Assembly (NCBI RefSeq): GCF_000817735.3
Contig: NZ_JTJC03000001.1
Span: forward strand, 877,710-941,709
Direction: 5' to 3'
Origin: Scytonema millei VB511283
GTDB lineage: Bacteria > Cyanobacteriota > Cyanobacteriia > Cyanobacteriales > Chroococcidiopsidaceae
DNA length: 64,000 nucleotides
Shown here in pieces: positions 43,997-61,987 of this stretch; within the stretch, counting starts at the first letter, position 1, and each line of letters starts with the position of its first letter. The notes under the pieces were generated by a model that ran no database searches, had not been told where the DNA came from, and saw nothing but the letters and a program-made list of their open reading frames with translations. The position numbers and the translations under genes are program-made.

Positions 43997-45445
43997 TTAA
44001 TCTCCACCTAATTCGACAATCTTGCCAATATTGAAATCTATCCTGATCCAGCCTTTGAGTCGGCGGAGATTGTCTAAAAGCAAGAGGGGAATTTGCCAGT
44101 GGTGTACCATTAAAAATGGCAAAGGATCGTCCATCGCAAAAATTGCATCCTGCCCACGCCAGATGTTTTGAAACCAGGTCTGTAATTGTTGAAAAGAGCG
44201 AATTCCAGTTAGCCGCCAGAGTTCGTGATAAGTCCAATATGTAGGCTTGCTGGTTGGTAGGGGTTGCAACGGATATATTGTAGAGGCGGGTTTACCCGAA
44301 ATATTGTCGATCGACGAAGAATTCAATAAACCCGCCCTAGACGTAGAGGTATTACATGTAGCGTCTTCAGATAAAAAAGCATCGGCTACGCCTGGATGAT
44401 TATAAAACATTGTAATTGCTGAGTGGGTGCGGGGGTTGCACTCGATCGCGTAAATGTTTCCATCCTCAGCTTGAATAAAGTCAAAAGAAGCTTGTCCGGT
44501 AATTCCTAATTCTTTGACAAAATGACGCACCCATGCAAGTATCTCTGGCTTGTCAACGTTTTCGTAATTGACTTGAAAAGCCGAAGACTCGCAACAGCAG
44601 TGCATTCTTAATTCCCCATTGCGGACGGTGCTGTGAGTGCAATATTCCTGTCCTGGGATAAATTCCTGCATAATCCAGGGCTTTTCAGGACTAATCGGCA
44701 GGCTGTTGACAAAAGCTGCTGTTTGTGATGGTGTAGCGCAGGGTAGCTTAGTTAAGTTTAAACGACGTACCGAGTCGTAGGGAATGCTTTTGAGGATATA
44801 CGGACGTTCTGCATCGGAAAAGTCGAAATTAACAACTTGTTCTGGATTGGTAATCTTGAAAGATTTGGGGACGGATAGACCGAGCGATCGCGCTTTCTCG
44901 GCAAAATCATACTTATCGTCTAACATCTGCGTCACCTCTGCATCGAAGTGAAACACCTCGCAGCAGCCAGATAGGACTGATTTAGCCAAAGAGTCATAGT
45001 AGCTAGCGACGGGACTACAGACGGGAACGTAGACATCGATATTTTCTTGTTTGGCGATCGCCAGCAATGCTTGTGAATAGCCTTCCGGGTCTTTTTCCGG
45101 TGCGGGAACGGTATAAAAGCGATCGACGGCGTTAGAAAACCGATGTCCGGTTAACCAATATTTATGCGTTTCTACCAATACCACCCGATGCCCGACCAGA
45201 TGAAACGAACGGGCGAGTTGCAGGGCTTTGGTCATCTTCCCCCCCGTCAGCATAATGTTTTTGGGTTGCGATACAGGCAAGATGCCCCTGTCACGAAACG
45301 GCTGGCTGACGAGATTCCACAATAACGCTGTCAAGACAACGATACAGTTGAAAGGAAAGGCGATCGCGAGTAGAAGTAACGTTCCCAGATTTTGGAATAC
45401 TGCAAATATCTGCATGGTAGGGGTAATAGATTGTGGTAGAAGCAA
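43997..45445 (-). CDS. mysC: MysC: ATP-grasp ligase making mycosporine-glycine
   Basis: A 482-residue ATP-grasp protein. The N-terminus is hydrophobic (LGTLLLLAIAFPFNCIVVLTALLW), typical of cyanobacterial MysC. Then come KNIMLTGGKMTKALQLARSF, RPYILKSIPYDSVRRL and WIMQEFIPGQEYCTHST (ATP-grasp), and the metal-binding IYAIECNPRTHSAITMF. MysC activates 4-deoxygadusol by phosphorylation and joins glycine, giving mycosporine-glycine. It is downstream of mysB by 23 bp. Between HPGVADAFL and KPTYWTYHEL about 30 residues are read from two palindromic repeat elements (44280-44340 and 44343-44368). It is probably still functional, as the insert lies after the catalytic core. Confidence 0.92.
   Translation of the reverse strand: MLLPQSITPTMQIFAVFQNLGTLLLLAIAFPFNCIVVLTALLWNLVSQPFRDRGILPVSQPKNIMLTGGKMTKALQLARSFHLVGHRVVLVETHKYWLTGHRFSNAVDRFYTVPAPEKDPEGYSQALLAIAKQENIDVYVPVCSPVASYYDSLAKSVLSGCCEVFHFDAEVTQMLDDKYDFAEKARSLGLSVPKSFKITNPEQVVNFDFSDAERPYILKSIPYDSVRRLNLTKLPCATPSQTAAFVNSLPISPEKPWIMQEFIPGQEYCTHSTVRNGELRMHCCCESSAFQVNYENVDKPEILAWVRHFVKELGITGQASFDFIQAEDGNIYAIECNPRTHSAITMFYNHPGVADAFLSEDATCNTSTSRAGLLNSSSIDNISGKPASTIYPLQPLPTSKPTYWTYHELWRLTGIRSFQQLQTWFQNIWRGQDAIFAMDDPLPFLMVHHWQIPLLLLDNLRRLKGWIRIDFNIGKIVELGGD
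44280..44368 (-). repeat. Two palindromic repeat elements inside mysC coding sequence
   Basis: 44280-44340 begins GTAGAGGCGGGTTTA and ends TAAACCCGCCCTAG, an inverted pair matching the ends of the two elements in recN. It is followed at 44343-44368 by GTAGAGGTATTACATGTAGC and a GTCTT end, a diverged copy of the ACATGT-centred palindrome found at 52211-52240 and 53398-53435. Both are translated in frame. Confidence 0.85.
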
Positions 45446-53397: not shown

Positions 53398-53435
53398 TAC
53401 GTGTAGAGACGTTACATGTAACGTCTCTACACGTA
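53398..53435. terminator. Perfect 38-bp palindrome between convergent genes
   Basis: A perfect inverted repeat centred on ACATGT, with inner arms GAGACGTTACATGTAACGTC and outer TACGTGTA/TACACGTA. It lies between the response regulator stop (53381) and the GNAT stop (53442), so it could terminate both. Diverged copies are at 52211-52240 and, in coding sequence, 44343-44368, so it is a mobile or dispersed family. Confidence 0.7.
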
Positions 53436-54061: not shown

Positions 54062-55969
54062 TTATCGTTTTTTTGCCGATTTAACCGATCGCGATTTTGT
54101 TGCTGCACCGTTTTGTGGAGTTTGGCGCTGATTGGCGGCTTGGGTGAGGAGAGATTCAGCAAAGGCGATCGCATCTTGGGCAGATTTACCACCAGCAAGA
54201 TTTGCTAATTCCTCCCGCCGCGTATCAAAATTATCTAGGGCTGTGACTCTGACGACTGTTCTGATTTCTCTCTCGGCTCCCGGTACGGGCGGGTTTGTCG
54301 GGATTGTTGGTTGATTTCCAGACGTGTCTGATAAACCCGCCCCTACGACTCCCGATTGGGGTACGGGCGGGTTTGTTGGGATTGTTTGTGCGTCTCCGGG
54401 TGTGTCTGATAAACCCGCCCCTACGATAACTTGCTTATCTACCCGAAAATGACGATCTGCCATAGCTGCAACTAAGGGTTGGTGGGTGACGCACAAAACT
54501 TGGTGGCGATGGCTCAGGTGGTGGAGTTTATCGGCGATCGCTTGGGCGACTCTTCCCGATACGCCAACATCAATTTCATCAAATATCAGCGTTCCAGATG
54601 CTTCGGCTTGGGAAAAACAAGCTTTCAGGGCGAGTAGAAATCGACTCATTTCACCCCCAGAGGCGATCGCAATTAAGGGTTGTAATGGTTCGCCAGGATT
54701 GGGACTAAACAGAAAAGAAATTTGGTCGTTTCCGGTGGCTGTAGGAACTGTAGAGGCTATTTCTACTTGAAATTGGACTTTTTCCATCGCCAAGGGTTTG
54801 AGTTCTGCGAGAATCTGTGCTTCGAGTTTGGCGGCGGCTTGTTGGCGGAGTTGGGTGAGTCGATCGCATTCCTGCAATAGTCGGTCTAGATATTTTCGTT
54901 CCTGCTGTTCCAAGGCTTCAATCGATTGTTCGCTGTCGTTGAGTTCGGCGAGTTCTGCCTGGATTTTTTGGTAGTAGGCGATCGCTTCTGGGAGAGTACC
55001 GTATTTGCGACACACCAGTTTCAATTCGCGAATGCGGGATTCAACGATTTCTAGCCGTTGCGGATCGGATTCTAAACTTTCTCCATAAGCGCCGATCTGC
55101 CGTCCTGCTTCCGTAACTGCTGCTAGTGCTTCACCAACTAAATCGAGGATTGGTTGTAGCTGGGTATCATATTGCACCATATCTGTGAGCGTCACTTCTG
55201 CTTCTGCTAGCAAGTCGGCGCTGGCTTGCCCGTCATTCTCATTTTGATAGAGGACTTGGTAGACTTTATAACTCGACTGTTGCAGTTCTACGACATGGCT
55301 GAGGCGTTGACGTTCCTGTTCTAGCTGTTCTAGTTCGTCTGGTTCGGTTAAATTGGCTGTTTCTAGTTCTTTGACTTGATAAGTTAATAAGTCAATTTGT
55401 TGTAACCGTTGGCGATCGGACTGTCGCCGTTTTTCTAAATTATTTTTGATCTGTTGATATTCAGTGTAAGCAGTTGCGACAACTTCTCGCTGTTGAAAAT
55501 GACTTGTACCGCCATAGAGATCTAACCATTCTCGTACTTGGGCTGCTTGTCCTACCTGTACGGCTTGCCCTTGGGCAGTAATTTCTACTAAGCGATCGCG
55601 TAGTTGTGCCATTTGCTGGCGATTGACGAGTACTCCATTGACTCGCGATCGGCTGCGGAGGCTATTTTGAGCTAAAGTTAATTCGCGACTGCATATTAAG
55701 GAATTATCGTCAAGTAGTTCGATTTCTTCTGTAATTAGCCAGTCAGCCACATCTTTATCCAATCGAAACGTCGCTTCAATCAAGGCGCGATTTGTTCCCG
55801 TGCGAATGGCGCGACTATTGGCTTTACCACCCAAAGCTGCATCGATCGCATCTAAAATAATCGATTTACCAGCACCAGTTTCGCCTGTGAGGACATTCAG
55901 ACCTGAGCCGAATTCTAACTCCAGCTGGTCAATTAAAGCAAAATTTTCAATCTGGAGAGAGATTAACAT
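54062..55969 (-). CDS. recN: RecN: DNA repair SMC-like ATPase with repeat insertion
   Basis: A 635-residue SMC-like protein acting in double-strand break repair. Walker A is GETGAGKS at 29-36. Long coiled-coil arms occupy about 170-370. The ABC signature is IASGGEMSRFLLAL, Walker B is GTLIFDEIDVGVSGR, and the switch His region is VLCVTHQPLVAAMADRHFRV. Usual RecN is about 550-580 residues; the excess here is explained by residues of about 514-563, read from two tandem 64-bp palindromic elements (NPPVP and VGAGLSD appear twice), plus a polar tail. The insert lies between the HFRV segment and the final ELANLAGG helix, a surface-exposed region, so activity may be kept. Confidence 0.95.
   Translation of the reverse strand: MLISLQIENFALIDQLELEFGSGLNVLTGETGAGKSIILDAIDAALGGKANSRAIRTGTNRALIEATFRLDKDVADWLITEEIELLDDNSLICSRELTLAQNSLRSRSRVNGVLVNRQQMAQLRDRLVEITAQGQAVQVGQAAQVREWLDLYGGTSHFQQREVVATAYTEYQQIKNNLEKRRQSDRQRLQQIDLLTYQVKELETANLTEPDELEQLEQERQRLSHVVELQQSSYKVYQVLYQNENDGQASADLLAEAEVTLTDMVQYDTQLQPILDLVGEALAAVTEAGRQIGAYGESLESDPQRLEIVESRIRELKLVCRKYGTLPEAIAYYQKIQAELAELNDSEQSIEALEQQERKYLDRLLQECDRLTQLRQQAAAKLEAQILAELKPLAMEKVQFQVEIASTVPTATGNDQISFLFSPNPGEPLQPLIAIASGGEMSRFLLALKACFSQAEASGTLIFDEIDVGVSGRVAQAIADKLHHLSHRHQVLCVTHQPLVAAMADRHFRVDKQVIVGAGLSDTPGDAQTIPTNPPVPQSGVVGAGLSDTSGNQPTIPTNPPVPGAEREIRTVVRVTALDNFDTRREELANLAGGKSAQDAIAFAESLLTQAANQRQTPQNGAATKSRSVKSAKKR
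54283..54424 (-). repeat. Two 64-bp palindromic elements in frame inside recN
   Basis: 54283-54346 and 54361-54424 both begin GTACGGGCGGGTTTGT and end GTGTCTGATAAACCCGCCCC then TAC, with 14 bp between, giving a 78-bp (26-codon) period. The ends are inverted repeats of each other (GGCGGGTTT/AAACCCGCC). The centres differ by several substitutions. A related element lies in mysC at 44280-44340. Confidence 0.93.
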
Positions 55970-60659: not shown

Positions 60660-61987
60660 GCACTCCTAATCAGTTCGAGGGGAGATTTTTGTAATAATTT
60701 TTGGGCGGGGACAAGAGAACCAAAAATTACCATCGGTGGTAGGTAACAGATAACTAATGCTGCTGATTTGAGTACAGTTCCCCAATTAAATAGAGTTGGT
60801 ACAAGCCAGCCTAATAACCCCGTGCCTAAAATTAGACCGATCGCGGTTGCACTGAAAAAGAGTAGCAAAGACTCTAGTAAAAATAGATAAAATACATCGC
60901 TACTGACTCCTACAGCCGCAAAAATGCCAAATTCTCGTTTGCGTTCTTCGATACTGAGTAAAGCGGCTGTCAGCATGAGTACGAATCCCAAGCCGAGGGT
61001 AATTTTAGCCAGCCAGCCTAAAAGGGAAGCACCTGCTTGGTTGAAGTAAATTGCAGCTAATTTGACGTTGAAACCTACCATATCGGCGCGACTGAAGCGT
61101 TCTTCCAAAAAGTAGGCAGTGGCGTTTTTGTCGGTGGCGGTGACGGTAGGATCGGTTGTGACTTGAATATTCCTTTGGGTAAGAAATTGGCGGAGGGTAA
61201 AGGCATCTTTGGTTGGTAACATGACCCAACTGATTCTTCCTGGTTGTTCTAAAATCTGTTGGGCTGCGCTGAGGGGCATTTGCACGATCCCTACCGCACC
61301 TAAATCGGGTATGGTTCCGACTGCATCGACTGGTAAGGAGATTTGTTTGACTTTTAAAGTGTCTCCTGGTTTGAGTTGTAGGGTTTGGGCGGCTTTGCGG
61401 CTCAAAATGACTGTTCTACAGGTGGAACAGCCGTAGAGGGCGGGCGATCCCCCTAATTTCGGTTGTGAAGGAGGGCTTTGAGATCCCCCCAACCCCCCTT
61501 GAAAAGGGGGGCTTTCTGATTTCTTCCCCCCTTGTGAAGGAGGGCTTTGAGATCCCCCCAACCCCCCTTGAAAAGGGGGGCTTTCTGATTTCTTCCCCCC
61601 TTGTGAAGGGGGGCTAGGGGGGATCTTCTGCGACGTAGTCGTGACGGATGGAAACTTTGCCGTGAGTACCTTCAAACCTCGATCGCCATTTTGTTGCAAT
61701 ATCGGTGCGATCGCGCTTTCGGGTAATGTCTCTTTAGTTGTAAAAAACCCCGTCTGCTTGTCGAGTTGAAATCCTGTAGGTGGAGTAATCCAGACGTTAG
61801 CTATACCTTGGGGAGTTTGGCGAATGAAGTCGTAGACGTTGGTAGTTCCCGATTCAAAACTCAAAGCCACGGCATTGACAAATAATACTGCTGCGATCGC
61901 CAGTGCTAAACCAGCCGCCGTCAGTCCGGTTCGCATGGCGTAGCGTCCCAAATTTGCCAGCGCCATTCTGAAAAACTTGCCTACCAC
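60656..61987 (-). CDS. FtsX/MacB-like ABC permease with 69-bp tandem repeat insertion
   Basis: A 443-residue permease. TM1 is TGLTAAGLALAIAAVLFVNA, followed by a large periplasmic domain and three C-terminal TM segments (LLGWLAKITLGLGFVLMLTA, LLLFFSATAIGLILGTG, and so on), with SIEERKREFGIFAAVGVSSD as the cytoplasmic coupling loop. Residues of about 129-175 of the periplasmic domain are encoded by two identical 69-bp repeats (PPFQGGLGG twice) and are Pro/Gly-rich. The rest of the domain (CRTVILSRKAAQTLQLKPGD) looks normal. Substrate unknown. Confidence 0.88.
   Translation of the reverse strand: MVGKFFRMALANLGRYAMRTGLTAAGLALAIAAVLFVNAVALSFESGTTNVYDFIRQTPQGIANVWITPPTGFQLDKQTGFFTTKETLPESAIAPILQQNGDRGLKVLTAKFPSVTTTSQKIPPSPPSQGGKKSESPPFQGGLGGSQSPPSQGGKKSESPPFQGGLGGSQSPPSQPKLGGSPALYGCSTCRTVILSRKAAQTLQLKPGDTLKVKQISLPVDAVGTIPDLGAVGIVQMPLSAAQQILEQPGRISWVMLPTKDAFTLRQFLTQRNIQVTTDPTVTATDKNATAYFLEERFSRADMVGFNVKLAAIYFNQAGASLLGWLAKITLGLGFVLMLTAALLSIEERKREFGIFAAVGVSSDVFYLFLLESLLLFFSATAIGLILGTGLLGWLVPTLFNWGTVLKSAALVICYLPPMVIFGSLVPAQKLLQKSPLELIRSA
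61463..61600 (-). repeat. Two identical 69-bp tandem repeats inside permease gene
   Basis: 61463-61531 and 61532-61600 are identical 69-mers (23 codons) beginning TTGTGAAGGAGGGCTTTGAG and ending TTTCTTCCCCCC; a third partial copy starts at 61601. Each holds the inverted pair CCCCCCTT GAAA AGGGGGG, a palindrome well known from cyanobacterial spacers. Confidence 0.95.

Follow-up and report, generated by a model that had tools for sequence, protein, structure and literature searches.

In-frame copies of a high-copy, probably mobile palindromic element in recN and other genes of a free-living cyanobacterial genus

Results

The recN gene of the window, by which we mean the whole 64,000-nucleotide stretch of DNA analyzed here, contains two tandem palindromic units that keep its reading frame open, and related units are found in many other genes and intergenic regions of the same genome (G000) and of its two congeners (G001 and G002). 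We consider it very likely that the recN units are copies of a non-autonomous mobile palindrome whose in-frame insertions are tolerated. According to this proposal, a palindrome of about 62-70 bp would spread at high copy number through these genomes, often landing in or beside short tandem GGGAGTC arrays. Inside genes, only frame-keeping copies would survive, mostly in linkers and loops, and these would be translated as an extra loop peptide. The recN insertion would have occurred before the divergence of the three congeners, between two strands of the C-terminal part of the protein, where the peptide would be tolerated rather than used.

The host gene (54062..55969, minus strand) is an open reading frame encoding 635 aa, which matches Pfam SMC_N and reaches 575.6 bits with the NCBIfam recN equivalog model (TIGR00634), above the cut-off of 407.85. 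On the coding strand, both units read GTAGGGGCGGGTTT-N36-AAACCCGCCCGTAC and are 64 bp long. The first in reading order (54361..54424, minus strand) encodes VGAGLSDTPGDAQTIPTNPPVP and is followed by a 14-bp spacer (54347..54360, minus strand) encoding part of QSGV, by the second unit (54283..54346, minus strand), which encodes VGAGLSDTSGNQPTIPTNPPVP, and by what by eye appears to be a heptamer-like remnant (54263..54282, minus strand). The spacer resembles two GGGAGTC heptamers, a likeness that is clearer in the congeners, and gives the start-to-start period of 78 bp (64 + 14). A 67-nt direct repeat is 87% identical between the units, their inverted ends measure 14-17 nt, and as single-stranded DNA they fold more stably than shuffled versions of themselves (z of -3.10 and -4.18). 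Both are stop-free in the recN frame and add about 50 residues to RecN. The coordinates, the repeat, and the fold all agree with the original prediction of two tandem 64-bp units with a 78-bp period and inverted ends; by the coordinates the units encode residues 516-563, compared with the 514-563 proposed there. Allowing up to 2 mismatches, the end motif GTAGGGGCGGGTTT occurs 7 times in the window against 0.26 expected, four times in the two recN units and once in mysC. No Rfam family reached its gathering score anywhere in the window.

RecN was matched in 59 of 60 genomes, one of them that of the window, and the linker was read in 30 listed loci. The insert is present in three of these, which belong to one genus (G000, G001, and G002), and in none of the other 27 linkers read, which vary in length and sequence. 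Likewise, no element was found among the 72 readable linkers (8 to 71 residues) of 80 named cyanobacterial recN loci, a set that omits the window's genome and very near ones, and so is silent on the congeners, and that shares some genomes with the 30 loci. The suggestion that the segment might be strain-specific thus holds only as a restriction to the genus among the loci read, since all three congeners carry it, and conservation in distant cyanobacteria, which had been named as evidence to the contrary, is absent from the 27 and 72 linkers. We give practically no credence to a sequencing or assembly artefact, also raised in the original prediction, as the double insert and its frame are common to the window's assembly and the two other congeneric ones and nothing was found in favor of an error.

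Two observations were made alongside these scans. Allowing up to 2 mismatches, 3 of the 80 named recN loci contain the end motif, against about 0.8 expected from the rate in the window, and judging from their positions these matches fall outside the linker. In G006, from another genus of the family, the RecN linker contains AAAACCCGCCCGCACGG, which is perhaps a decayed half element; if so, the recN insertion would predate the genus.

The recN units belong to a family that is 62-69 bp long in 41 aligned copies and up to 70 bp at places found with a covariance model. In each copy, conserved 14-nt arms flank 34-41 variable bases. The GTAG end is nearly invariant in the 41 copies, and the GTA of one end pairs with the TAC of the other, leaving a G-G mismatch. 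The middles differ much between copies, and by eye some look inverted relative to the ends. Exact pattern copies number 198 in G000, 235 in G001, and 105 in G002, with 0 for the reversed control. The model of the 41 copies recovered at least 140 distinct places in G000, which is a lower bound given that about 150 candidates were scored. The same model matches 5 of 20 genomes, namely those of the three congeners (among them the one from which it was built), G006, and G019, the last from another family. A stricter pattern has a patchy spread in the phylum, with 34 positive genomes among 386. The genome-wide count proposed earlier yields 198 pattern copies in G000, with 26 of the 140 listed places intragenic and 114 not, and supports the reading of a palindrome that entered recN in frame.

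Copies were classed as intragenic if the open frame around them was 200 aa or longer and extended 40 aa or more beyond the element in both directions, the context being read at all 140 listed places. The 26 intragenic places correspond to 21 or 22 open frames, some of which run off the sequence read. Family models identified the host at 22 of them, namely recN (2 places) and, at 20 further places, 19 proteins that all match a Pfam family; the other 4 places are in three frames. These hosts comprise two of CobN/ChlH type, NRPS (3 places), an amylase/maltokinase-type protein, glutamate synthase (gltB), valyl-tRNA synthetase (valS), hydantoinase/oxoprolinase type (3 places, one open frame by coordinates), a heavy-metal ATPase, GH31, PMT type, a TPS-domain protein, the glycogen debranching enzyme, DnaX, a response regulator, an O-antigen ligase type, and CbiD. 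Two further intragenic copies, beyond the 140, were found in a 587-aa protein (C5:305869) and in mysC. Many unrelated proteins carry near-identical elements, which are read in either orientation and in three registers. In gltB, valS, dnaX, and several others, the element falls between Pfam matches; in no fewer than five hosts (both CobN/ChlH-type proteins, the metal ATPase, GH31, and CbiD), it falls within one.

The register starting at GTA is used by 21 of the 26 intragenic copies (10 sense and 11 antisense), with 5 in others. Among the 114 non-intragenic listed copies, 78 are stop-free in this register in sense, compared with 53.1 (sd 4.6) when interiors are shuffled, and 73 in antisense, compared with 50.1 (sd 5.1). 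There is little excess in the remaining registers (55/51.1, 47/39.2, 27/24.7, and 0/3.3, observed/shuffled), the zero being due to the TAG in the element end. Because the copies are related to one another, the excess outside long frames is no more than suggestive.

Intragenic copies are associated with the heptamer. With up to 1 mismatch, GGGAGTC occurs within 21 nt to the left of 20/26 intragenic and 35/114 other listed copies (Fisher 2.9e-5), and within 21 nt to the right of 20/26 and 33/114, respectively (Fisher 9.6e-6). Random 21-mers of the same loci contain it in 63/2800 cases, a background contrast that is partly circular because the heptamer was picked after seeing the copies; the contrast between the two classes is less so. 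Heptamer arrays differ in length at many sites. As seven is one more than a multiple of three, gaining or losing heptamers could restore a frame, and such changes may have been one way in which frames were restored. A frame test on heptamer number is uninformative, because multiples of seven compensate any length.

To compare occupied and unoccupied sites, 13 intragenic genes were sought in G001 and G002 with host flanks only, and the junctions were read. Together with recN, valS, dnaX, and mysC, 16 sites were resolved in the three congeners; the debranching enzyme, for which no G001 locus was listed and which lacks the element in G002, was left out of the count. All three congeners carry the element at 5 of the 16 sites (recN, the chlH-type gene, GH31, the response regulator, and the L120 gene), and at least one lacks it at the other 11 (amylase type, oxoprolinase, second CobN type, gltB, metal ATPase, PMT, O-antigen ligase type, CbiD, dnaX, valS, and mysC). 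Empty sites in G002 contain heptamers or other simple repeats, for example in the metal ATPase, oxoprolinase, PMT, and CbiD genes. The site in the metal ATPase, a copper-ATPase, is a GGGAGTC array without the element; the empty gltB and valS sites hold another short palindrome, and the empty amylase-type site a mini-palindrome with heptamers. Several empty sites, such as those in CbiD, PMT, and mysC, show no trace of the element.

mysC, the second host in the window (43997..45445, minus strand, 482 aa), was delimited as an open reading frame and through its orthologues, and its name is that given in the original prediction. The related copy predicted there is indeed present, as a 63-bp family element in frame at 44280..44342 (no strand assigned), which is also found in G002 and is absent from G001. 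A decayed short palindrome adjoins it (44343..44368, no strand assigned, extent by eye). mysC of G001 has a complete 28-bp palindrome without the element, and G000 and G002 carry the element beside it. The valS linker was compared in 15 genomes, with an insert in 6 and a short linker in 9. The inserts are a CCCCCC-type palindrome plus a 67-bp element in G000, an element of the 63-bp type in G001 and of the 64-bp type in G006, a 28-bp palindrome in G002, a palindrome-like repeat in G005, and two tandem unrelated repeats in G019.

Other repeats were noted near these subjects. The unrelated repeat in the G019 valS linker (L223) is VRSEDFSPQGERTEVLTTN, in two tandem copies. Positions 53398-53435 of the window form a perfect intergenic palindrome, TACGTGTAGAGACGTTACATGTAACGTCTCTACACGTA, similar to the 28-bp palindromes in mysC of G001 and valS of G002. 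Repeats of the AGATCCCCCCAACCCCCCTTGAAAAGGGGGG type lie at 61481-61626 of the window, and a relative is in frame in the G000 valS linker beside the GTAG element. In four G002 orthologues (L337, L339, L341, and L356), linkers of conserved enzymes are filled by translated simple repeats, such as NYQLPTTNYQLP, NSKFKIQN, and DKGDKGDKG. In the chlH-type gene (L149), the element at G000:C2:500068 is trailed by a repeat of 21 bp of host sequence, GCGATCGCCAATGGGAAAATT, and then by a second mini-palindrome, an arrangement that could reflect either a local duplication or a trace of insertion. The L120 gene (G000:C1:359563; L342 and L343 in the congeners) contains tandem partial element copies whose numbers differ between congeners.

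These last two genes, together with the variable length of the heptamer arrays at many sites, are what one would expect if local duplication, slippage, and gene conversion of pre-existing repeats had made the alleles with no mobility involved. We regard this as improbable, as comparable elements are found both in unrelated genes and in intergenic DNA, and several empty sites (CbiD, PMT, and mysC) bear no trace of the element. From the dispersed copies and the filled and empty alleles we infer instead that mobility would be the cause of the presence/absence polymorphism. In a search for a mover, G000 was found to contain 8 Y1_Tnp loci of two types, in 3 and 5 copies, with open frames of 133 and 148 aa (RAYT or IS200 type). 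When up to 3 mismatches were allowed, the end motif turned up in the flanks of one type only, beside all 3 of its copies and with 3 mismatches; the flanks of the other 5 loci had none. Among the Y1 transposases, no autonomous partner with matching ends, that is, no parent insertion sequence, was found, and visual inspection of the filled and empty junctions revealed no constant target duplication. Because the motif beside one transposase type has 3 mismatches and because some copies lie within domains, our confidence in a mobile palindrome is slightly lower than it would otherwise be.

In 13 orthologous intragenic sets, arms differed less than interiors, with counts of 12/336 vs 40/465, 8/196 vs 39/269, and 8/168 vs 41/230 (P = 0.005, 0.0002, and 0.00008, for pairs that are not independent). 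The slow arms may reflect constraint on the ends, conversion between copies, the amino acids encoded, or ascertainment, as copies were found by their arms in G000. They would also fit elements that act as RNA or DNA hairpins (in transcript stability, pausing, or topology) inside genes as well, the peptide being a by-product. This seems unlikely to us, though somewhat less so than local duplication, as several of those copies have arm mismatches and the slow arms may come from ascertainment or amino acids.

In RecN itself, an AlphaFold2 model (33 sequences; mean pLDDT 77.3, pTM 0.57) places residues 519-565 between strands 506-516 and 569-577, with pLDDT below 50 and without regular structure, although low values are also expected where an alignment has no homologous residues, and no aligned sequence covers the insert. 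The insert is probably a floppy loop, according to this prediction. Its dN/dS is 0.73, 0.34, and 0.58 in the three pairs of congeners (48 codons with few changes), compared with 0.08, 0.06, and 0.08 elsewhere in recN. Constraint on the insert is weaker than on the remainder of the gene, and values below 1 in all pairs leave room for some constraint. The arms show zero differences in both copies of all three species; the interior changes.

A selected function for the loop, such as genus-specific regulation or partner binding, would account for its retention in all three congeners, for the identical arms with a changing interior, and for dN/dS below 1. We nonetheless find it improbable, as the ratio is several-fold above that of the rest of recN, the loop is predicted to be unstructured, and near-identical elements occur in so many unrelated proteins regardless of orientation and register. 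We infer that the loop is neutral, in keeping with a tolerated copy of a mobile palindrome.

Discussion

Rickettsia provides the best-known in-frame palindromes, and others have been listed from bacteria that carry REPs. Rickettsia palindromic elements (RPEs) enter unrelated genes in frame, and the genes survive the insertion (PMC3767692; PMC10969869), and in R. japonica and related species different RPE types occupy one locus, for which hotspots or a common origin have been discussed (PMC3767692). The likeness to RPEs drawn in the original prediction holds for the in-frame copies in genes that stay open (26/140 listed places) and for the polymorphic sites; membership in the RPE family is not claimed. 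The comparison is by description, not by sequence, and the element differs in its size (62-70 bp against 100-150 bp for RPEs; PMC3767692), in its association with heptamer arrays, and in its host, which is a free-living cyanobacterium (its recN is nearest to those of cyanobacteria) and not Rickettsia or Wolbachia.

GTAG REPs are high-copy stem-loops, some of them intragenic, including in repair genes, and the cyanobacterial groups are GTAG-12, -15, and -16 (PMC3733652). Our element shares with them GTAG at one end of a stem-loop, high copy number, and copies within genes, but REPs are 20-40 bp long with loops of 2-20 bp (PMC3733652), and the element is 62-70 bp long with 34-41 bases between its arms. 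The comparison with GTAG-12, -15, and -16 was made by description and not by family consensus sequence. Small repeats of Nostoc reported by Elhai et al. in 2008 are said to occur with heptamer tandem repeats, a setting that they would share with the element. Cyanobacterial MITEs such as Nezha are short non-coding units with inverted ends (PMC3733652; PMC10969869). The element also has inverted ends and is likened to them by description, not by sequence; it differs in that no parent insertion sequence with its ends was found among the Y1 transposases searched. RPEs are therefore nearest in behavior and GTAG REPs in anatomy, and the element misses the size of both. The best reading is that it works like RPEs without being a member of their family. 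In a literature search whose coverage mostly excluded subscription journals, we recognized no description of this element or of in-frame palindromes in the genus.

Compared with the original prediction, the insert is genus-wide, the phenomenon extends far beyond recN, and the element is associated with heptamers. It is possible, if rather doubtful, that the family is adapted to life in genes, as the excess of stop-free copies outside long frames might suggest, with heptamer arrays in enzyme linkers as landing pads and changes in their copy number restoring the frame. If true, core enzymes of a free-living bacterium would routinely house mobile palindromes in their linkers, which would keep supplying new loop peptide.

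For genome annotation, our results are a warning that a species-specific loop in a conserved enzyme can derive from a repeat. In this free-living cyanobacterial genus, some twenty open frames carry inserts, those of ValRS, DnaX, glutamate synthase, and RecN among them, and the filled and empty alleles of three close species make the origin, the frame-keeping, and the cost of such inserts directly testable.
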